Assembly (NCBI GenBank): GCA_022822325.1
Contig: JAJEBW010000018.1
Coordinates: 1-64,000, forward strand
Direction of reading: 5' to 3'
DNA: 64,000 nucleotides
From: Gemmatimonadota bacterium
GTDB taxonomy: Bacteria; Gemmatimonadota; Gemmatimonadetes; Longimicrobiales; Gaopeijiaceae
Shown: positions 1-9,329 of the stretch, one piece after another
How positions within the stretch are numbered: the first letter of the stretch is position 1
Layout of the letters: each line of letters starts with the position of its first letter
Notes under the pieces: model-generated
The model's database searches: none
What the model saw: the letters and a program-made list of their open reading frames with translations, nothing else
What the model was told of the DNA's origin: nothing
Translations under genes and position numbers: made by a program

Positions 1-42
1 TGGAACCCTTGAAACAGGAAGGATAGCGGCTTACACTGTGTT

Positions 43-117
43 GGCATCGGTCCTCCGGCGTGGCTGCGGTGAAGTTGCTGGCACAACCAAACTTAACAGC
101 CCCCGGAGGCCGGTGCC
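43..117. repeat. Imperfect inverted repeat at window start
   Basis: The stretch at 43-58 (ggcatcggtcctccgg) is nearly the reverse complement of 103-117 (ccggaggccggtgcc), with about 44 bp between the arms. It lies about 130 bp upstream of the first gene. It could be a transcript hairpin or a remnant end of a mobile element, but no transposase is visible beside it. Confidence 0.35.
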
Positions 118-248
118 GTCTTATAGGCTTGAGAAATCCGGGCTAAAAGCTCGCTGAAGGCTCGATGCTGAAGGCTCGATAATGCAACCTGCCGTCGGCC
201 CCGAAGGCCGTGTCACGGGGCCGATGCCCCCCTGATGGACCGCCAACC

Positions 249-1469
249 ATGAAGCTGTCTCGCTCCATTTCATACTGCGTTGCGGGTTGTCTGCTGCTCA
301 CCACCGGCGAAGGCAACCCTGCGCTCGCCGCCCAACCTTCCTTCACCATCCGTGACAGCGCTGGCGTGCGCATCGTCGTGAACAGCGGTCCGGCGTGGTC
401 CTCAGAGGCGGAATACCGAATTGGCGCCCGGCCAGTCCTGAAAATCGGCACGGTTGAGGGCGATCCGCACCAGATGTTCGAACAGGTGCGCGGTGTGACG
501 CGCATGGACGACGGGACGATCGTTGTGCTGGAAGGCGGTACGAATGAACTCCGGCTCTTCGACGCGGGCGGCAACTTCGTCCGCAACCTTGGGGGAACCG
601 GCGACGGACCCGGTGAATTCCGTTTTCTGACGGAGATGTGGGTAAGCGGCGACACCATTTTCGGCTTCTGCAACGCCCGGAAACGGATTTCGGTCTTTGG
701 CCGGGATGGACAAGTCCTTGCGAACACCCGTATCGAAGTGGCCGAAGGGGCGGGAAATCCGGCAGCGAAGGGCCATTTCTCCGACGGAACGCTTCTGGTC
801 CTCAGCGCGCCGAGCGGTGTCATTCCAATGACCCAGGGCGTCTTCCCCGGGGCGTCGTGGCGCCTCGACCGCTTTTCGCGCAGCGGCCGGTTCATCAACG
901 AGATTGCCTTCGTGAAGGAGTCGAACAGGTGGGGACACGAAATTTCGGGGCTCCCACCGGGGATGTACCTGCCGCTCTCGCTGGGAATCGGCCCCTACGC
1001 GGCGCGCGACGCCCATGTCCATACCGGAGATCCCACCGAGGGCAGCATCGAACGCTGGGGTGGCGATGGAGACCTGACTCGCGTCATTCGCTGGCCGACT
1101 CCGGAGCTCAGGGTGACTGCACGGCAGAGGAGCCGCTATCGCGTAGCTCACGCCGAGCCGCCGCAAGGGGTAAACCCCGCAAGCTGGAACCGCTACCTGG
1201 ACGAGACGCCGTTTCCGGACCGCATGCCGGCCTACTCGCGCCTGCTGGTCGACGCCCTGGGGAATCTCTGGGCGGAGCGTTATCGGCCGTCCTGGGAGGA
1301 AGGGTCCTCCTGGTACGTCTTTGACGAGCGGGGAGTTTGGCTGGGCGAACTCCCGACCCCGCACGGTCTGAGGATCTTCGAAATCGGCGCCGACCATGTT
1401 CTTGGCCTCGAGCGAGACGAACTTGGCCTTCCATTCGTCGTGATGTTTCCGCTGGCGCGCGCTAGCTGA
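249..1469 (+). CDS. Exported 6-bladed beta-propeller protein
   Basis: Predicted extracytoplasmic beta-propeller of about 406 aa, a family abundant in Gemmatimonadota and Bacteroidota with mostly unknown ligands. The N-terminus has a signal peptide (MKLSRS, then a hydrophobic stretch ending near ALAAQ). Blade-like repeats follow, for example G-x-F-VRNLGGTGDGPGEF near residues 110-128, a hallmark of NHL/6-bladed propellers. The ATG at 249 is chosen because it begins the signal peptide; upstream in-frame codons would add a proline-rich leader. It lies 343 bp before a second propeller gene on the same strand. No catalytic residues are apparent, so a binding or scaffold role is inferred. Confidence 0.75.
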   Translation: MKLSRSISYCVAGCLLLTTGEGNPALAAQPSFTIRDSAGVRIVVNSGPAWSSEAEYRIGARPVLKIGTVEGDPHQMFEQVRGVTRMDDGTIVVLEGGTNELRLFDAGGNFVRNLGGTGDGPGEFRFLTEMWVSGDTIFGFCNARKRISVFGRDGQVLANTRIEVAEGAGNPAAKGHFSDGTLLVLSAPSGVIPMTQGVFPGASWRLDRFSRSGRFINEIAFVKESNRWGHEISGLPPGMYLPLSLGIGPYAARDAHVHTGDPTEGSIERWGGDGDLTRVIRWPTPELRVTARQRSRYRVAHAEPPQGVNPASWNRYLDETPFPDRMPAYSRLLVDALGNLWAERYRPSWEEGSSWYVFDERGVWLGELPTPHGLRIFEIGADHVLGLERDELGLPFVVMFPLARAS

Positions 1470-1812
1470 ACATCAGGGGAGCGGACAGGCCGCGCGGGAC
1501 CGTCGCCGCAGCCCGGCGCGAGGCCCGCGCGGGTCGAGAACGCCATCCCGGGCAACGACGACGCGACGGTCGAGGAACCGGGCTGTCTCACGGCTTCGAC
1601 GCGCCCACGCTCGCCTATGGTCTGCATTTCTAGTAACACACGATACGACAAATACTTGTCCGGAAGTTGGCCGATTTCGCTATCGGAATGCCCATTCAAT
1701 TCGCTTAACCTGTGCGCGTCCAAATCACGGACGGTCCGCCGGGGCCGTTCAAGACTTGCACCGCGTCCGGAGGGGAAGCCATCCGGGACGACCACGATGG
1801 GAGGACATCACG
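1470..1812. other. Intergenic stretch between the two beta-propeller genes
   Basis: No convincing gene is seen. A GC-rich inverted repeat (CCGCGCGGG at 1490-1498, CCCGCGCGG at 1524-1532) lies just after the first gene and could act as a weak terminator, though no T-run follows. The segment 1625-1710 is clearly more AT-rich than its surroundings and is the best candidate for the promoter region of the downstream cluster, but no good -35/-10 pair was found. Confidence 0.4.
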
Positions 1813-2931
1813 ATGGCGATGACGAAGCCGGGCCACCGGCGCAACAATGTGCGTCGAACCCCACAAGGGTTCCACACTCACCTTCCGATTCGGCGCGTTG
1901 GCCGGTTGCTCCCCGGGTTGGCGCTGCTCGCCTGCGAGCGGTCGGGCAACGAGAGGCCGGGTGGGGAGCCCGTGGAAGCGCCACCGTCGGCCACGGCCCC
2001 CGATGCCGAGGGAACCGATCTCGCCGCATTTCGGGAGGCCTTCGAGGTGGTGGGCGAGTTGACCCTGGAGGAAACCGAGGACGCCATGGTGGTCATCCCC
2101 ATGGTGTATCCGGTGGAGGGTGGACGATTCCTCCTCGTCGAACCGATGGAGGGCAAGGTGAATCTCTATGGCCCCGATGGCGGTCTCATAAGAACCGTGG
2201 GCCGAAGCGGGGGCGGACCGGGGGAATTCGCGTTTCCGATGGGCGGCGATCTGTTGCCGAATGGCGCGGTCGCCGTGGCGGATGTCGGGAGCCCCAGACT
2301 CACCTTCTTCCCGGCGGAGGACGGCGGCGATCCGGAGGTGATGCTCTCTCCTCTGGAGGCGGCCGCGGGAATCTGGGGTCTCGGGGGTGCGCGCTACCTC
2401 TTGGCCGGGGTCGTGTCCCTGAGCGAGGAAAGACCCAGTCTCCTGCACATCTGGAACCGCGAATCCGGCGAGTTGGAGAACAGCTTCATGCCGATCGGAG
2501 TGCCGGATCGGGTGCTGCCGCGGGCTCGGAGTGCGCCGGCATCGAATGCCGTGATCCGGGGAGACACGATATGGGGAGTCTGGGCGCTCTCGGACACGCT
2601 CTACGGGTTCGACCTCATGGGCGAGCTCCGTGAACGAATCCCCATCCCGATGCCGCGCCCCATCGGGGACATCGGAGACCGGTCCCGGCAGACTCCGAAT
2701 GTCTACCGGCCGTATCCGCTCAACGTTGGTCGCATGGCGGTCTCGACCGTGGTGGGAGACGTGTCCGATGCCGAGTGGGATCTCGTCATCATGGACCGGG
2801 CCGGCAACGCTCTCTGGGGGGGAATCGACATCCCGCGGCTTATGGTGGTCGCCGATGATCTGTTCTACTTCGACGATCCGGCCTCCGAGCTGCCGAACCG
2901 GTGGCTTGTGGCGCGATGGAGGGGGCCGTGA
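1813..2931 (+). CDS. Beta-propeller lipoprotein
   Basis: A 372-aa lipoprotein with a 6-bladed beta-propeller body. A basic N-terminus leads to a hydrophobic stretch ending in the lipobox LLAC, followed by a Ser/Pro/Glu-rich linker. Blade motifs include the G-x-I-RTVGRSGGGPGEF type, the same signature as in the gene at 249. The ATG at 1813 is preceded by GGAGG; an in-frame ATG at 1756 would add 19 residues before the signal. Its 3' end overlaps the next lipoprotein gene by 16 bp, indicating co-transcription. The role is unknown; membrane-anchored recognition of a neighbouring secreted product is one possibility (inference). Confidence 0.75.
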   Translation: MAMTKPGHRRNNVRRTPQGFHTHLPIRRVGRLLPGLALLACERSGNERPGGEPVEAPPSATAPDAEGTDLAAFREAFEVVGELTLEETEDAMVVIPMVYPVEGGRFLLVEPMEGKVNLYGPDGGLIRTVGRSGGGPGEFAFPMGGDLLPNGAVAVADVGSPRLTFFPAEDGGDPEVMLSPLEAAAGIWGLGGARYLLAGVVSLSEERPSLLHIWNRESGELENSFMPIGVPDRVLPRARSAPASNAVIRGDTIWGVWALSDTLYGFDLMGELRERIPIPMPRPIGDIGDRSRQTPNVYRPYPLNVGRMAVSTVVGDVSDAEWDLVIMDRAGNALWGGIDIPRLMVVADDLFYFDDPASELPNRWLVARWRGP

Positions 2932-3548
2932 GGGGTCGGCGGTGGAGACCTGGACCGATCGCCCCTTTGGCTCTTGCGGCACTCGCGAGCTGCGGTCCGG
3001 GCGAGACCGATGGGAACCCCGGTGCGCGAAACGGCGATGCGATGCCGCTGATCGCTGCCCCCCCTGGAGTGCCGACGCTGGTATGGGTGATCGATGCGCA
3101 GGCCTGCCTGGGATGCGATCTCAATGACCCCGCCCGCATCGTGCGGTCGGTCCAGAGGAGCGGGGGAGGGGCTTTCGCGACTCAGGTGATCGCGCTCTCG
3201 GACCAGGGGGAAGCGGATCGCGGTCTCGTGGAGGGATTTCTGCAGTCCCACCGCATCTCCGGCCATGTGGCCATGCACTCCTACCGGGACCACGCGTATG
3301 CCTTCGGCGCCGGTCCGGTTCCAGGATTCTACCTGGTGGACGGAGGGGGAACGATAAGAGCCGTGGTCGGCGCCGGCGAAGCGGAGAAGTGGCGCTCGGC
3401 CGCGGAATCGTTGGACATCGCCGGTTTCCTGATATCCTTGGCAGAGGAAGGAGAAGAAGAAAGAGGAGGAGGCGACGGAAGAGAGGGTGACGAAAGAGAA
3501 GGCGACGAAAGAGAAGGCGACGAAACCAGTGTCGGCGCGGACGGATGA
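2916..3548 (+). CDS. Thioredoxin-like lipoprotein with CLGC motif
   Basis: A lipoprotein of about 210 aa. An N-terminal hydrophobic segment ends in LASC, followed by a domain containing CxxC (CLGC) after a beta-strand (PTLVWVID). A later G-P-V-P-G-F-Y segment fits the cis-proline loop of thioredoxin folds. A periplasmic thiol-disulfide or redox-sensing role is inferred. The C-terminus is a low-complexity acidic tail of G-D-x-R-E repeats. The ATG at 2916 starts inside the upstream propeller gene; a GTG at 2901 is an alternative. Its position directly before two short Cys-rich exported peptides suggests it acts on their cysteines, but this is not shown. Confidence 0.65.
   Translation: MEGAVRGRRWRPGPIAPLALAALASCGPGETDGNPGARNGDAMPLIAAPPGVPTLVWVIDAQACLGCDLNDPARIVRSVQRSGGGAFATQVIALSDQGEADRGLVEGFLQSHRISGHVAMHSYRDHAYAFGAGPVPGFYLVDGGGTIRAVVGAGEAEKWRSAAESLDIAGFLISLAEEGEEERGGGDGREGDEREGDEREGDETSVGADG
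3489..3527 (+). repeat. 15-bp tandem repeat in lipoprotein 3' end
   Basis: The unit gacgaaagagaaggc occurs twice back to back at 3489-3518, with a third partial copy after it. It encodes a DEREG pentapeptide repeat and is in frame, so copy-number change would lengthen or shorten the acidic tail without a frameshift. Confidence 0.8.
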
Positions 3549-3641
3549 CGCGAAGCACTCGGAATACCGGGCCGCCGGACGGGATTGCCGGCGTGGTCCG
3601 GCCCAATCACAAATCGCAAGACGCGAAGAAAGGAACGAAGA

Positions 3642-3908
3642 ATGGCGAATACGAACGGAAACCCTGGAAGGCGCGGCGCGGCGTGGTCTCGCCGGGTCGT
3701 GATGGCGGGAGTCGCGCTCTCGGTAGCGATCGGCGCACCGTTGCGCTCCGCGACGGCGGAGGTGGCTGCCGCTCAGGTCGATCATACGGTGATTGATCAT
3801 TCCCACAGGTGGAACCTCACCTTCTGGGGTCTTGATTTCTGCATCCTGAACTGCGTACCGGGGCTCGGCCTTTGCTGCGGCGAGGAGGAAGACATCCCGC
3901 TGCTCTGA
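3642..3908 (+). CDS. Short exported Cys-rich peptide 1
   Basis: An 88-aa protein not recognised as a named family. A basic N-terminus (GRRGAAWSRR) and hydrophobic core (VVMAGVALSVAIGAP) are followed by likely cleavage sites (SATA, VAAAQ). The mature part is only about 45 residues and ends in a cluster C-x3-C-x6-CC, an acidic EEED and PLL. The start at 3642 has AAAGGAACGAAG upstream. It follows the CxxC lipoprotein by 93 bp and precedes a second peptide with the same cysteine layout. It could be a secreted signal or structural peptide, or an analogue of the NVEALA-type peptides found beside beta-propeller genes in Bacteroidota (analogy only). Confidence 0.6.
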   Translation: MANTNGNPGRRGAAWSRRVVMAGVALSVAIGAPLRSATAEVAAAQVDHTVIDHSHRWNLTFWGLDFCILNCVPGLGLCCGEEEDIPLL

Positions 3909-3969
3909 TGCACCAGGTCATCCCTGGAACGGACCAAATCCGAAACTGCCCTGGAACCAGGGCACGATC

Positions 3970-4014
3970 ATGGAGGACAAAGTCATGGAGGACACAATCA
4001 TGGAGAATGAGAGA
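3970..4014 (+). repeat. 15-bp tandem start-codon/SD module
   Basis: ATGGAGGACAAAGTC, ATGGAGGACACAATC and a degenerate third unit ATGGAGAATGAGAGA run in tandem. Each has an in-frame ATG, and each GGAG(G) sits at good Shine-Dalgarno distance from the next ATG (3985, 4000, 4015). The start of the following peptide gene is therefore ambiguous and possibly redundant. Confidence 0.75.
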
Positions 4015-4314
4015 ATGAATGCAACCGGAACAACAACACACACCGAGATCAACCCCACAATCTCCAACCCGCCGCGCAGTCGGCGGACCGCGCGGCCGCT
4101 CGCGAGCTGGTCGGGGCGGGCGATGCTGCTCCTGGGCATCTTCGTGCCGACGATCGGTGGCCTGGCTACTCCCAACCGGGCGGAGGCGCAGTATGGTGAG
4201 TTGAGAAAGGCCAGCGAGTGGTTGATCTTTACCATCTGTCACCGGAAACCCTGTCCCGGCAAGCACGAGGACTGCTGCATCGTAAGGCCTCGCGACAACC
4301 ATCCGTTGTTCTAG
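3970..4314 (+). CDS. Short exported Cys-rich peptide 2
   Basis: A 114-aa protein from the first ATG, or 99 aa from the ATG at 4015. A Thr/Asn-rich leader and RRTARP precede a hydrophobic core (AMLLLGIFVPTIGGLA) and a probable cleavage after NRAEA, leaving a mature peptide of about 40 residues. The mature part carries C-x4-C-x6-CC and ends in HPLF, closely parallel to the peptide at 3642 (C-x3-C-x6-CC, ending PLL). The sequences between the cysteines are otherwise different, so the pair looks like diverged paralogues. It is probably co-transcribed with the lipoprotein upstream. The function is unknown; a post-translationally modified or disulfide-bonded secreted peptide is inferred. Confidence 0.6.
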   Translation: MEDKVMEDTIMENERMNATGTTTHTEINPTISNPPRSRRTARPLASWSGRAMLLLGIFVPTIGGLATPNRAEAQYGELRKASEWLIFTICHRKPCPGKHEDCCIVRPRDNHPLF

Positions 4315-4656
4315 CTTGGGGAGTGGGTCCGCTTCTCCTGAGCGCTGGACCGTGAGTCGGACGTAGGCCGAATTGTGCCGACGCTCTCCCGGCCCCGAAT
4401 CCCGAACCTTCCTCTGCCAGCCGGCGGGCCGAAGTTTCTTCGGCCCGCCGGCATCTCGTTTGTCCCCATCCCGGATATGCCCCATATCCGGCGAGAACCG
4501 CGACAGGAACGGCGCGACCGACGCATGTAGCTCCCGAGCGAACCGGGGCGCCGGCGACGGAACGCCCGTACCCCTTTCAGCCGCCGTCGCGACGGGGTTC
4601 GCAGTCTGTCCGCGGTTTCGCGGGCAAAGATCTCTGGAAGAACCGGATTTGGCGTC
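4315..4656. other. Convergent intergenic region with hairpins
   Basis: This gap separates the peptide gene from the convergent bshB1 gene. It contains the strong hairpin at 4420-4452 (listed separately) and a smaller one at 4471-4491 (CCGGATAT / ATATCCGG, 5-nt loop). No coding sequence with convincing support is seen. Confidence 0.6.
4420..4452. terminator. Strong hairpin, probable bidirectional terminator
   Basis: Two perfect 14-bp arms (GCCGGCGGGCCGAA / TTCGGCCCGCCGGC) surround a 5-nt loop GTTTC, between convergent genes. The downstream tail on the + strand (atctcgtttgt) is only modestly T-rich. Confidence 0.6.
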
Positions 4657-5382
4657 TCAGAAGGTCGGAACCGTAAGCTGTCCCAGCGTCGGCGCCTCGA
4701 CCGTTTCTTCCGTCCAGTACGGCTCTCCGCAGGCGCGCCGAATCAGCGCACCCCACGAAGCGTGCGCGCTCCGGATCTGGTCCAGGAGCGATCGCTCCCC
4801 CCCTGGGAAGACTTCTCCAAGGCCGCGTTTTCCCTCGACCTGCGTGCGATAGGCGGCGAGAGCCTCGATCTTGCGGTCCATCTGGTCGGTGACGTCCACC
4901 ACGAAGGTGGGTTTGGCCGGGGCTTTGGCAAAGGCAAGTGCGTAGACGAGCTTCTCGGGGCGGTGAGGAACGCCGGCAGCCGGGAATTTGGCCAGCCCGG
5001 CCAGGAAGCTCGCATCACGCGCGAGTCGCGCGGCGGCCCGGTGGTCGGGGTGGCGCCCGGTTCGCGCATGCGTGACCACGACGCGCGGTCGCAGCTCCCG
5101 CAGGATCGTCGCAACCTGGGCCCGGCTTCCGGGATCGTTGACAAGCGCTGAGTCAGGGAGTCCGGCGCACCGTCGAATCGCAAGTCCCATCACCGCGGCG
5201 GCCCGGGCAGCTTCCCTGGACCGCGACTCCCGGGTGCCGCGCGATCCGGCCTCTCCGGCAGTCAGATCCAGGACTCCCGTGCGCTCCCCCGCGTCGGCCG
5301 ACTTGATGAGAGCGCCCCCGCAAAAGATCTCCGCGTCGTCGGGGTGGGCCATGATGGCCAGAAGGTCCAGCGGCGCGGTCAT
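4657..5382 (-). CDS. bshB1: Bacillithiol biosynthesis deacetylase BshB1
   Basis: A 241-aa member of the PIG-L/LmbE zinc deacetylase family. BshB1 removes the acetyl group from GlcNAc-malate in bacillithiol synthesis. The metal-binding HPDD is at residues 13-16, the GEAGSRGT motif near 43-50, and the second His motif HPDH at 111-114; a late AYRTQ motif is typical of BshB1. Length is normal. It lies 34 bp downstream of two efflux permease genes on the same strand and may be read through from them. The alternative is a generic PIG-L deacetylase of another small molecule, but the motif set favours BshB1. No bshA or bshC is in the window. Confidence 0.88.
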   Translation of the reverse strand: MTAPLDLLAIMAHPDDAEIFCGGALIKSADAGERTGVLDLTAGEAGSRGTRESRSREAARAAAVMGLAIRRCAGLPDSALVNDPGSRAQVATILRELRPRVVVTHARTGRHPDHRAAARLARDASFLAGLAKFPAAGVPHRPEKLVYALAFAKAPAKPTFVVDVTDQMDRKIEALAAYRTQVEGKRGLGEVFPGGERSLLDQIRSAHASWGALIRRACGEPYWTEETVEAPTLGQLTVPTF

Positions 5383-5416
5383 CTGCGGTCACCCCATTGC
5401 TTCCAGGAACGAATCG

Positions 5417-6766
5417 TCACTCGAAGCGCAACGCCTCGACCGGATCCAGACGGGAGGCCCGCATTGCCGGCAACATCCCGAAGAGGATTCCGGTGACGAT
5501 TGCCAGAGCGATGGCCGCGGCGACCGACCAGAGCGGAATGCGTGCGGGCAGCGGCGAAATCGCGGCCAGGATCTCGCTCGCGCCCCACCCGACCAGCAGC
5601 CCCGAGATCGCGCCGGCCGCAGTGAGGATCGACGCCTCGATCAGGAACTGCCACTTGATCTCCTGCCGGGTAGCGCCCATAGCTTTGCGAATCCCGATTT
5701 CGCGCGTTCGCTCGGTAACCGAGATCAACATGATGCCGATCACGCCGATGCCGCCAACCATCATCCCGATGGAGGAGAGTCCCACCAGCACCAGGAAGAA
5801 CATCCCGGACAACTGATCGAAGGCCTCCTGAATCTGTTGCGCGCGCATGATCGCAAAGTTGTTGTCCTCGTCGGGAGCGAGTTCACGCATCGATCGCAAT
5901 GCCGACACCACCTCGTTCTCGGCTTCGGTCGAGGTGACGCCGTCGCGAGGGACCACCTCCACGGCCGCGAAGGTCCACCGGGTGCGCGCCTTGAGCCGCT
6001 TGTCCGCAGTGGTGAATGGGACCAACGCGTAGTTGCCGGCCACCTCCCCGAAAAGGTTGTCCAGAGGTTTGAAGACTCCGACCACCGTGAAGCGCTCGTT
6101 GGCCGCTCGCCTGCCCGCATTGACCCTGACCTGCCTCCCCACCGGGTCGATCTCTCCGAAGACGGCCTCCGCGACCTCCTGCGTGATGACGACGACCGGC
6201 CGCGCCTGGTCCACCTCCACCGGTGTGAAGTTCCGTCCTGAAACGAAATCGCCCGGCGTCGAACTGGTCCAGGTGGAGGACACCCCCCGCCAGCCCAGAT
6301 TCCTGACCCACTCGGACTCAAAGCGAATGGCGGCTCCGAAGTCGAAGGATGCGGTCGTTTGGCCGATCGCCGGAAGCCCCTGAATACGCCGGATCTCGCG
6401 ATCGGTGATCGGGGGTTTGTCGAACCAGGGAGGCCTTCCCGAGTTGAACGAGACGCGAGCGTCCGAAAAATCGAAGGGCATCACCGTGAAGTTCTCGGGA
6501 CTCGATGCCGTGAAGATATCCATGACCTCGGTGCGCAGGCCAGTGATCATCGCCGCGACCGTCACCACCACTCCCGTCCCCACGCCCACGCCCAGGACCG
6601 CCAGGACGGTTCGCATCCAATTGCCGCTCAGCGCCTGCAGCGCCACCCGGGTGCCCTCGGAGACGATGCGCAGGACCGGGACTCCGGCTTCGCTCGCCGA
6701 AGCGCCCGGAATGCGGGAGGAAGCGGGCGCGCGATCGCTGGGCCGGGACTGGAGCATATCGTTCAT
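5417..6766 (-). CDS. MacB/FtsX-type ABC transporter permease
   Basis: A 449-aa MacB-family permease subunit. A cytoplasmic N-terminus is followed by one TM helix (about 40-63), a large periplasmic MacB_PCD-like domain, and three C-terminal TM helices forming the FtsX domain, with the typical ERTREIGIRKAMGA motif. It is the distal permease of a five-gene minus-strand operon. Its ATG overlaps the upstream permease stop by 4 bp (ATGA). Such permeases power export only together with a separate ATPase, which is not encoded here. Likely role: mechanotransmission in a tripartite efflux pump with the adaptor and TolC genes. Confidence 0.9.
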   Translation of the reverse strand: MNDMLQSRPSDRAPASSRIPGASASEAGVPVLRIVSEGTRVALQALSGNWMRTVLAVLGVGVGTGVVVTVAAMITGLRTEVMDIFTASSPENFTVMPFDFSDARVSFNSGRPPWFDKPPITDREIRRIQGLPAIGQTTASFDFGAAIRFESEWVRNLGWRGVSSTWTSSTPGDFVSGRNFTPVEVDQARPVVVITQEVAEAVFGEIDPVGRQVRVNAGRRAANERFTVVGVFKPLDNLFGEVAGNYALVPFTTADKRLKARTRWTFAAVEVVPRDGVTSTEAENEVVSALRSMRELAPDEDNNFAIMRAQQIQEAFDQLSGMFFLVLVGLSSIGMMVGGIGVIGIMLISVTERTREIGIRKAMGATRQEIKWQFLIEASILTAAGAISGLLVGWGASEILAAISPLPARIPLWSVAAAIALAIVTGILFGMLPAMRASRLDPVEALRFE

Positions 6767-8004
6767 TCGTGCCTCAATGCATCAACGGGATTCAGCTTTG
6801 CGGCTCGCGACGCCGGATACACCCCCGACACGACCCCGACGAGGATCCCGAGGGACAGACCGAAGGCCATCCACTTCGGCGCAATCGCGACGGGAAGGGG
6901 AGACACCGCGGCCACGGCGATGGTGAGGCCAATTCCCACTCCGATGCCGACGATGGCCCCCATCCCCGAGAGTGTTCCGCTCTCGATCAGCACCTGTGCC
7001 ACAATGTCGGCGCGCCGGGCCCCCAGCGCCTTGCGGATTCCGATTTCGCTGGTGCGCTCCATGACCGACACCAGCATGATGTTCATGATGACGATTCCCC
7101 CCACCACCAGCGAGATGCCCACCAGGCCGGGCAGCGCCATGAAGAGCAACTGGCTGATCACGTCCCATGCATTGAGCGAAGCCTCGGCCGTTTCCGCCGC
7201 GAAGTTGTTCGCATCGGCGGGACCGAGTCCCCTGCGGGTCCGCATGAGCTCCACGACCTCGTTCCGGAGGGGACCCACCCCTTCGGGCGTTTCGGCTCTG
7301 AAGACGATTCGGTCCACCCTGCCGCGCGGCGCGGTAATGTTCTGCAGCGGGGATCGCGCGGGACCGATGGCCAGGTTGTCCAGGGAGTTGCCCAGGAAGG
7401 ATCCCTGCTCTTCGATGACTCCCAGCACGCGGTAGGGAAACCCGCGAATGCGCACCCGTCGGCCCACCGGATCGGCGGCGTCGAAGAGCACTTCGGCCGT
7501 GGACTTGCCCAGAACCACCACCGGGATCCCGCGCTCCGCCTCCTGGCGGGTGAAGGCCCGGCCGCGCTCCAACTCCCAGTTGCGGATCTCGAAGATCTCC
7601 GGCGCGGCGCCGACGAGACGCACATTCTCGGCCCGGACACCGGTCTCCGACTCGATCTCCCCGCCTGCGTCGCTCTCGGGCGAAATGGATGCAGGCAACC
7701 GGATCCGTTCCTGCAGATAGTCCAGATCCCGGAAGGTGAGGCGCGGCGCCCGCGCGAGAGCCCTGGCCTCCGCGGCGGTGGTCGCGATCTCGAACTGGGG
7801 GTTGTGACTGAGCGTGACGGTATTGACCCCGATGATCCGCTGGGTGAGCGTACTGCGAATGTACTGGTCCATTCCCTCGACGATGCTCACCACGACCACG
7901 AGGAACATCACGCCGACGATGACGCCGAGCAGGCTGAAGAAGCTCTTCAACCGGTTGGACCGAATCTGGTCCCAGGCCAGCCGCATCCCCTCCAGGAATC
8001 GCAT
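6763..8004 (-). CDS. MacB/FtsX-type ABC transporter permease (paralogue)
   Basis: A 413-aa second permease with the same layout: a TM helix near residues 20-42, a periplasmic domain and three C-terminal TM helices with ERTSEIGIRKALGA. The ATG at 8004 (MRFLEGMRL) is used; the open frame runs far upstream but antisense to other genes, so a longer form is unlikely. It starts 14 bp after the adaptor gene's stop and overlaps the next permease by 4 bp. The two permeases probably form a heterodimer. The ATPase gene normally found in such operons is missing. Confidence 0.9.
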   Translation of the reverse strand: MRFLEGMRLAWDQIRSNRLKSFFSLLGVIVGVMFLVVVVSIVEGMDQYIRSTLTQRIIGVNTVTLSHNPQFEIATTAAEARALARAPRLTFRDLDYLQERIRLPASISPESDAGGEIESETGVRAENVRLVGAAPEIFEIRNWELERGRAFTRQEAERGIPVVVLGKSTAEVLFDAADPVGRRVRIRGFPYRVLGVIEEQGSFLGNSLDNLAIGPARSPLQNITAPRGRVDRIVFRAETPEGVGPLRNEVVELMRTRRGLGPADANNFAAETAEASLNAWDVISQLLFMALPGLVGISLVVGGIVIMNIMLVSVMERTSEIGIRKALGARRADIVAQVLIESGTLSGMGAIVGIGVGIGLTIAVAAVSPLPVAIAPKWMAFGLSLGILVGVVSGVYPASRAAKLNPVDALRHE

Positions 8005-8018
8005 GAACGACGGTGGCG

Positions 8019-9329
8019 TCAGCCGGACCGGTTCGCGGGCTCGTCGTCGGACGAGTCGTCGAGGGCTCGCACATTGGACTCGTCCTCGAGGGTGCGCACC
8101 GTTTCGTAGGGGCCGCTCACGACGCTGTCCCCCTGCGTCAGGCCGCGAACGACCTCGAAGAACTCCTGTCCCGAGATTCCGATCTCGACCGGTGTGAAGC
8201 GGGCGATTCCCCCCTGCACCAAAAAGACGCCCTCGACGGGTTCGTCGTCCTCGGGGTTGCCCCGGGAAGGCGAGTTGCCGCTGGAGGAAGCGGTCGCGGA
8301 GCCGTTGCCGACATCGCCGTTGGCGAAGTCGTCGGGGTCCCGCAGAGTGAGCGCAATGATGGGGATCGCGAGCTGGTCGGTGCGCGTGTCGGTGATGACG
8401 TCGGCGGTCGCGGAGAGGTCGGGACGCAACTCGGCGCCCGGGTCGTTCAGGGTAACGACGACCTCGAAGTCGATCGTCGGCGTCTGACCGCTCCCCGCCG
8501 CCTGCGAGGGCGGGCGGATCGCGCTGTTGCCGATCTCCGTGACGACCCCGGGGAAGGTCATTTCGGGGAAGGCGTCCAACTCGACGGCGGCGCTGTCGCC
8601 CAGAGCGATCTCGGGCACATCGGTCTCGTCGACCTCCAGCACCACCTCCATCACCGAGAGATCCGACACGGTCAGGATCAGGCTGCCCGGATTGTTCATC
8701 GTCCCCACGACCACCGTCTCGCCCTCTTCCACATTCAAACGAGTCACCCGGCCCGACATCGGCGCCCGAATGATCGTCTTGGAGAGCTGGTCCCGCGATT
8801 CCTCGACCGCCGCCCGGGCCTGGTTGACCCCGAACTCGGCCGCGTCCATAAGCGATTGCTGGACTTCGTGATCGGTCTCGGCGTTCTCCACCTCCTGGAG
8901 GCTCACCAGAAGGGAGTCGCGCGCTCGCAGGGCGGCCATCCGTTCCGCCTGGCGGGCGGCGCGCAACAGGTTCGCCCGCGTCTGGGCGACCTGCGCCTGC
9001 GATTGGCTGAGGCTGGCCTGAGCGCGATCGAGCGCGGCCTGGTGGCGACTGGGATCGAGACGCAGCAGAACCTGGCCTTCCTCGACATCCTGGCCTTCCT
9101 CCACCAGCAGTTGGGCGACCCGCGCCGAGATGTCGGAGCTGATGTCCACCTTGCGCCGGGCCCGGACATTGCCGCTGGCCGTGACGATCGCGACCAGATC
9201 GCGCCGCTCCACGGTGTCCATGCGCACCTCGACGCCGCGCTCCCGGTTGCCGCTGCTGGCCAAAACCAGGGCGAGGGCGATGACTCCCACGATCCCGGCG
9301 CCGATGACGATCCGTGTTCTTGTCTGCAT
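8019..9329 (-). CDS. Periplasmic adaptor (HlyD/RND membrane-fusion family)
   Basis: A 436-aa membrane-fusion protein. An N-terminal signal-anchor (RIVIGAGIVGVIALALVLA) leads to a split biotinyl-lipoyl domain, an alpha-hairpin rich in Gln/Ala/Arg around residues 85-170, and beta-barrel domains. A Ser/Gly/Asn-rich low-complexity insert lies near residues 325-350. It bridges the MacB-type permeases to TolC. Its start codon directly abuts the TolC gene stop (9330), indicating a single operon. The substrate is unknown; MacA-like proteins serve macrolides, lipopeptides or siderophores. Confidence 0.9.
   Translation of the reverse strand: MQTRTRIVIGAGIVGVIALALVLASSGNRERGVEVRMDTVERRDLVAIVTASGNVRARRKVDISSDISARVAQLLVEEGQDVEEGQVLLRLDPSRHQAALDRAQASLSQSQAQVAQTRANLLRAARQAERMAALRARDSLLVSLQEVENAETDHEVQQSLMDAAEFGVNQARAAVEESRDQLSKTIIRAPMSGRVTRLNVEEGETVVVGTMNNPGSLILTVSDLSVMEVVLEVDETDVPEIALGDSAAVELDAFPEMTFPGVVTEIGNSAIRPPSQAAGSGQTPTIDFEVVVTLNDPGAELRPDLSATADVITDTRTDQLAIPIIALTLRDPDDFANGDVGNGSATASSSGNSPSRGNPEDDEPVEGVFLVQGGIARFTPVEIGISGQEFFEVVRGLTQGDSVVSGPYETVRTLEDESNVRALDDSSDDEPANRSG

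Follow-up and report, generated by a model that had tools for sequence, protein, structure and literature searches.

A linked cassette of an NHL-type propeller lipoprotein, a thioredoxin-like lipoprotein and small four-cysteine proteins in Gemmatimonadota looks like an undescribed exported-peptide system

Near the start of a 64,000-nucleotide stretch of DNA from a Gemmatimonadota bacterium (assembly GCA_022822325.1, contig JAJEBW010000018.1, positions 1 to 64,000; this whole stretch is hereafter called the window), four plus-strand genes at positions 1813-4314 encode, according to the sequence and the list of its open reading frames (ORFs), a beta-propeller lipoprotein, a second lipoprotein and two small exported-type proteins, which we call Cys-peptides (Table 1). 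Our analysis of this locus and its relatives showed that the three parts form a linked cassette and that the small four-cysteine proteins, judging by their sequences, are built like exported peptides. The cassette looks like a seemingly undescribed exported-peptide system that is kept or lost as a unit, and no description of it was found in the open literature searched (one open library). The explanation that we consider best, with a probability of about 0.5, is that the peptides would be exported, have their disulfides set by the CLxC lipoprotein and be captured by the propeller.

The joint occurrence of the three parts was followed both in the genus and in the clade to which the cassette's propeller belongs. 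Propeller orthologues (E < 1e-30, 41-52% identity) were found in 14 of the 22 other genomes of the genus and the lipoprotein in the same 14, so that among all 23 genomes 15 have propeller, lipoprotein and peptide together and 8 have none of the three (Fisher test 2e-6, with kinship ignored). The tree of the flanking PIG-L gene requires at least three changes of presence or absence. The site is readable in five of the eight cassette-free genomes, and there the PIG-L gene comes right after a phosphomannomutase-like gene (read from sequence); two of the remaining three end at a contig end, and the third, G008, has other propellers at the site. Two propeller pieces are left at the empty sites of G002 (L259) and G015 (L258), and a 102-nt piece reaching from the end of the lipoprotein gene to the first peptide is left at that of G009 (L253). 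Given such deletion scars, the absence is at least partly secondary loss of the whole cassette.

The propeller clade comprises 30 loci (the window, L061-L085 and L164-L167), of which 29 carry a lipoprotein homologue. All 29 lipoprotein-bearing loci also carry a C..C..CC peptide, counting L074, whose peptide is truncated by the contig end, and L079, whose peptide has no signal, and the sole locus without the lipoprotein, L075, is without the peptide too. The co-occurrence of peptide and lipoprotein, which the initial annotation proposed to look for, is seen in 29 of 30 loci. When new loci were picked by the lipoprotein, peptides were found in four of seven (L164-L167, all with the propeller; L167 has a spacing of 9 and falls outside the strict detector described below), and the other three (L168-L170) hold ordinary thioredoxins with neither propeller nor Cys-peptide. 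The tie to the thioredoxin-like partner bears on one alternative, in which the propeller lipoprotein and the peptides would form a complex on the outer surface for contact with neighbours or the sponge host, and the thioredoxin-like lipoprotein would take no part in processing: such an arrangement leaves the tie unexplained (peptide in 29 of 29 loci with the lipoprotein, 0 of 1 without). It would suit the apparent habitat, as the relatives are Gemmatimonadota bins, some of them with the prefixes RHO and COS, which fit Rhopaloeides and Coscinoderma, sponges named in PMC8163846, and from which we infer a link to sponge hosts; the carriers are uncultured bacteria that apparently live in sponges. 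We regard surface display without processing as improbable.

Because the peptides had been found by motif, controls were run with a strict detector, which combined a signal-like N-terminus (hydrophobicity rule) with C-x(3,4)-C-x(3,8)-CC near the end. The results showed a total of 42 matches in 283 kb of module loci in comparison to 0 in 405 kb of controls. The matches comprised 34 in 25 propeller loci (222 kb, 22 loci with at least one), 6 in seven held-out loci (56 kb, three loci with a match) and 2 in window positions 1-5000, which are peptides 1 and 2; there were none in window positions 5001-64000 (59 kb), none in 239 kb (40 stretches) around the other propellers of the source genome, and none in 107 kb of 33 other loci. 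Three of the 25 loci gave no strict match: L074, where the contig end truncates the peptide, L075, which has neither lipoprotein nor peptide, and L079, whose core is without a signal. Among the 25 propeller loci, those with peptides carry one to three copies, and the small ORFs with a signal-like start and C..C...CC lie mostly behind the lipoprotein.

A profile of the mature core was then compared with 395 genomes of the phylum and matched 21 of them at E <= 1e-5, all at module loci and none elsewhere; only G239 was newly found in this way, because 20 of the 21 matched genomes had supplied profile rows. Six further matches are weak (E 0.004-0.013). The lipoprotein profile matches 25 of the 395 genomes, among them the seven whose loci were new. 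Two of the 21 genomes hold broken modules: in G012 (L079) the propeller has an internal gap and the peptide core is without a signal, and in G239 (L291) the peptide adjoins a propeller start that is run into the lipoprotein end, with an assembly error possible in both cases. Homologues that keep the cysteines, whose absence from related genomes had been named beforehand as refuting the proposal, are present in these genomes.

The peptide frames also look to be under selection. The ratio of nonsynonymous to synonymous substitution (dN/dS) was 0.23 to 0.75, and thus below 1, in all 24 peptide pairs computed, and one-sided Fisher tests on seven peptide pairs gave p values of 7e-6 to 0.09, six of them less than 0.005 and one of 0.09; purifying selection, the other point on which the initial annotation had staked its proposal, looks borne out. 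In the same comparisons dN/dS was 0.17 to 0.32 for the propellers and 0.12 to 0.52 for the lipoproteins, and the peptides therefore appear constrained, in part more loosely than their neighbours. The notion that the Cys-peptides are chance open frames carrying cysteines has in its favour that small ORFs are often open by chance in a GC-rich genome (71 ORFs of at least 40 aa overlap window positions 1-9000). It is contradicted by the detector controls, the dN/dS and Fisher tests and the mature-core search, and we consider a chance origin ruled out, with next to no probability left to it.

Divergence within the cassette is uneven in one group of loci. Where G016, G019 and G004 carry arrays of three peptides, the peptide stretch forms a local divergence peak: between G016 and G019 the identity of peptides A and B is 0.68 to 0.80 in comparison to 0.90 to 0.97 in seven of eight propeller windows. 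At L062:5678-6320, compared with L064 and L065, the peak suggests that peptide copies of that lineage have recombined or been exchanged. The idea that the peptides are hypervariable in general was considered and rejected, as the peak occurs in these arrays only and peptide dS is similar to that of the neighbouring genes in three other locus pairs (L165/L166, L067/L068 and L071/L072). The peak would fit a cassette that served antagonism, with bacteriocin-like peptides oxidised by the thioredoxin-like protein, as may be compared with PedC in pediocin production, and a propeller that protects the producer. The small size, four cysteines, tandem variable copies and thioredoxin-like partner would also fit, and co-produced PedC raises the potency of pediocin (PMC4919988). 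However, dS in the three other pairs speaks against antagonism, the cassette has no double-glycine leader and no transporter inside it, and the propeller, a conserved protein of 372 aa, is large for a role in immunity, so we rate it as unlikely.

The two window peptides share C-x(3,4)-C-x6-CC and end in PLL (peptide 1) and PLF (peptide 2), as the initial annotation had stated and the sequence bears out. Across the family, these features proved looser: the x6 spacing ranges from 4 to 9 and is not a fixed trait, and the PLL/PLF end is one instance of a broader tendency to finish in a hydrophobic residue (24 of 28 peptides). The mature parts had been described as unrelated-looking, but the two are probably paralogues, each tied by BLAST to the peptide in the same position in relatives. 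Peptide 1 matches the first peptide of L069 (E 2e-9) and also the first peptides of L061 and L066, and peptide 2 matches the second peptide of L069 (E 3e-6) and also that of L063; BLAST gives no match between peptides 1 and 2 of the window. Among the tandem peptides behind the lipoprotein at eight genus loci, all eight first peptides have C-x3-C, whereas all eight second peptides and all four third peptides have C-x4-C. As a general rule of order (x3 first, x4 later) this fails in L076, L164, L165 and L166, which have two C-x3-C peptides each.

The peptides start with basic residues, then a hydrophobic stretch and AxA-type sites, which is the design of exported proteins. Searches of 28 peptides against Pfam and NCBIfam gave no convincing family (best E 0.029 and 0.016, single members). 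The family profile matches peptide 1 at E 1.6e-20 and peptide 2 at E 1.7e-15, both being themselves profile rows, and the mature-core profile matches peptide 1 at E 2.4e-9 (itself a row) and does not find peptide 2 at E <= 0.02. An alignment of 32 mature cores shows no change at any of the four cysteines and a mean column identity of 29%; the rows were chosen by motif, and the alignment therefore demonstrates variation elsewhere and is no proof of cysteine conservation.

The window lipoprotein has no Pfam match. Its kinship was instead seen by comparing profiles with hhalign, in which it matched a profile of four TlpA-type thioredoxins from the same genome with probability 94.5 and E 8.2e-8, CLGC being placed on CxPC; by this alignment the cassette lipoprotein is thioredoxin kin with its CxxC in register. 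Among solved structures there were weak matches to ResA (E 0.08-0.1), with the aligned stretch ending short of the CxxC. Both active-site cysteines are kept in 25 of 29 lipoproteins, L069 with CLGC included. The best hint that the propeller and the thioredoxin domain act side by side is the fusion in G013 (L061:4512-6158; L117:4800-6446), where the two are joined in-frame in a predicted protein of 549 aa and the second signal peptide is gone. The fusion could possibly come from an assembly or sequencing error in a metagenome bin; the missing lipobox argues against this.

A CxxC lipoprotein together with peptides of the form C-x3/4-C...CC would also be compatible with an envelope redox or metal module, in which the peptides are thiol carriers or metal ligands working with the lipoprotein and the propeller is a docking scaffold. 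Vicinal CC occurs in metal sites, and its presence in the peptides favours such a module. Nearly everything else in the peptides varies, however, as the column identity above indicates, and so does the copy number; the gains or losses in the presence tree and the lipoproteins with an incomplete CxxC (4 of 29) count against it as well. We consider a redox or metal module rather unlikely.

The window propeller falls below the Pfam cut-off for PF17170 (10.9 bits, E 0.25, vs a cut-off of 22.9). Among proteins of solved structure, the profile of its family picks up NHL propellers, with TRIM71 at the top (E 3.4e-31, five matched stretches), and identifies the cassette propeller family as kin of NHL propellers. 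TRIM71, TRIM2, Thin and Brat have roles in RNA binding and ubiquitin ligation. The family profile matches the propellers of all four, which are domains of eukaryotic proteins, whereas the cassette propeller is predicted to be a bacterial lipoprotein. A search with the propeller-family alignment gave 18 named loci, all in Gemmatimonadota metagenome bins, two of them Longimicrobiales genomes; a contig search with the lipoprotein as query gave no match, and no relative of the cassette propeller was found in the plasmid collection.

The source genome (3.48 Mb) has 49 places matching PF17170 at E <= 0.01, the cassette's own propeller not being among them. The peptide scan covered 45 of these, 44 in the 40 stretches named above and one in the window, and in no case does a Cys-peptide belong to the propeller. 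The other propellers of the genome are also without the lipoprotein, because the genome has a single lipoprotein match. Directly upstream of the cassette, at window positions 240-1469, lies another gene for a 6-bladed propeller (PF17170 E 1.6e-7), whose product has an ordinary-looking signal peptide and not a lipobox. A phage-defence function was considered and rejected, as PADLOC gave no meaningful match, the single one being to a Cas6 model with E 0.018.

The mechanism which we favour can be set out in steps. The peptides would be exported by Sec, and mature products of about 31-44 residues would be freed into the periplasm or beyond; the CLxC thioredoxin-like lipoprotein would form or proof-read disulfides at the conserved cysteines, C..C and CC; and the NHL propeller, anchored in the membrane and lying beside the thioredoxin domain, would bind the oxidised peptide and hold, display or sense it. 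The output would be an exported peptide with a target outside (a signal, an antagonist or a host-directed factor) and not a housekeeping enzyme. An outside target seems most likely because the peptides vary in almost all but the cysteines and the hydrophobic end, number one to three per locus, and belong to a dispensable cassette. What the data show is the linkage of the genes, their joint presence and loss, their conservation, the exported design and the kinship with thioredoxins and NHL propellers; the redox action, the peptide binding and the role of the peptides are inferred. The G013 fusion and the joint presence and loss fit a mechanism that links lipoprotein, peptide and propeller.

Several observations weigh against this mechanism. 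The incomplete CxxC in 4 of 29 lipoproteins does not fit a universal redox role: in L078, L081, L082 and L084, all outside the genus, the first cysteine is lost and the second kept, with the peptide cysteines intact. Classical oxidoreductase chemistry therefore cannot be general, and in some lineages the lipoprotein may hold the peptide and not oxidise it. Only one of 18 members of the lipoprotein family matches Pfam (E 0.014). The gene order varies, with peptides upstream of the propeller in L074, L077, L083, L165, L166 and L167 (directly so in L074 and L077), on both sides in L076, and one between lipoprotein and propeller and one behind in L164. Part of the cysteine invariance comes from the way of finding the peptides, which were first picked by motif. 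Signal peptides were judged by the hydrophobicity rule and cut sites by an AxA regular expression, without SignalP, and the mature length so obtained is 31-44 residues in 22 of 27 peptides and 49-57 in five. Export, cleavage, disulfides and binding are all predictions from sequence, and the folds are taken from profiles.

Table 1. Features of the cassette and its downstream flank in the window
Feature	Position	Strand	Remarks
NHL-type (predicted 6-bladed) beta-propeller lipoprotein	1813-2931	+	372 aa, lipobox LLAC
Thioredoxin-like lipoprotein	2928-3548	+	GTG start, lipobox LASC
CLGC active-site motif of thioredoxin-like lipoprotein	3105-3116	+	Seen in the sequence; aligns with CxPC of TlpA-type thioredoxins
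Exported-type Cys-peptide 1	3642-3908	+	88 aa; putative AxA-type cut after EVAAA, mature 44 aa
C-x3-C-x6-CC motif of peptide 1	3840-3878	+	Seen in the sequence
Exported-type Cys-peptide 2	4000-4314	+	104 aa; putative AxA-type cut after NRAEA, mature 41 aa
C-x4-C-x6-CC motif of peptide 2	4237-4278	+	Seen in the sequence
GC-rich hairpin, terminator-like	4420-4452	+	15 pairs, 13 G-C; between cassette and convergent PIG-L-type gene

The order given by the initial annotation, with the propeller lipoprotein gene overlapped by that of the CLGC lipoprotein and two tandem Cys-peptides behind, agrees with the sequence and the ORFs. The lipoprotein start overlaps the propeller stop by 4 nt, GTGA being common to both genes, and the start of peptide 2 is placed at 4000, after GGAGG, whereas the mechanical ORF opens at 3970. 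The sequence and ORF list hold no further gene from the propeller to the hairpin and no transporter within the cassette. Terminator-like sites in 1400-4700 numbered three in comparison to 1.9 expected from shuffles. Beyond the hairpin lies the convergent gene (4657-5382), read from sequence as a PIG-L-type deacetylase, and past it, on the opposite strand, permease-like genes (also read from sequence). The window starts where the contig starts, and it contains no match to the phosphomannomutase-like gene that stands upstream of the cassette in relatives.

In comparison with known systems, the cassette resembles, without belonging to, two kinds of locus: the propeller-linked NVEALA peptides and the bacteriocins with a thioredoxin-like accessory protein. 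In Bacteroidota, small exported peptides of the NVEALA type stand beside 6-bladed beta-propellers (PF14055 / PF17170). The cassette is alike in having small exported-type proteins next to NHL-type propeller lipoproteins, and the propeller is next to a Cys-peptide at all 29 peptide loci, as it is for NVEALA. Unlike NVEALA, the cassette peptides have a C..C...CC core and the thioredoxin-like lipoprotein is present in 29 of the 29 peptide-bearing loci read. PF14055 matched none of 40 genomes at E <= 0.1 (3 of 14 controls match, Bacteroides ihuae among them) and none of 28 Cys-peptides at E <= 1, on which grounds membership of the Cys-peptides in NVEALA is rejected; the word NVEALA was not found in the open literature searched (one open library). 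The analogous module in another phylum that the initial annotation proposed thus stands in so far as Gemmatimonadota have a dedicated module in which propeller, CxxC lipoprotein and Cys-peptides go together; its tie to NVEALA is an analogy only.

The leader of pediocin is of the double-glycine type. The cassette is like pediocin and PedC in pairing a small Cys-peptide with a thioredoxin-like partner, and differs in its Sec-like AxA signal, its propeller lipoprotein, and its want of a transporter and of a convincing family match. PedC is a putative thiol-disulfide oxidoreductase, and the authors of PMC4919988 speculate that it sets the disulfides of pediocin. With TlpA and ResA the cassette lipoprotein shares the profile match and the placing of CLGC on CxPC; it differs from them in having no Trp before the CxxC and no Pfam match, in standing beside a propeller clade, and in a CxxC that is incomplete in 4 of 29.

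On a broader view, which we put forward tentatively, the cassette may be a new peptide system in which disulfide peptides, their own thioredoxin-like maturase and an NHL-propeller receptor are brought together in one cassette, found in three Gemmatimonadota families and in large part in what appear to be sponge symbionts; the NVEALA loci would then be a parallel invention or distant kin. A peptide family without a convincing Pfam or NCBIfam match here comes with its genetic partners, so that peptide, presumed maturase and presumed receptor are testable as a set. The cassette is also a handle on why the source genome has so many propellers, and should the peptides act on the sponge or from one symbiont to another, they would provide a testable molecular channel in the symbiosis.

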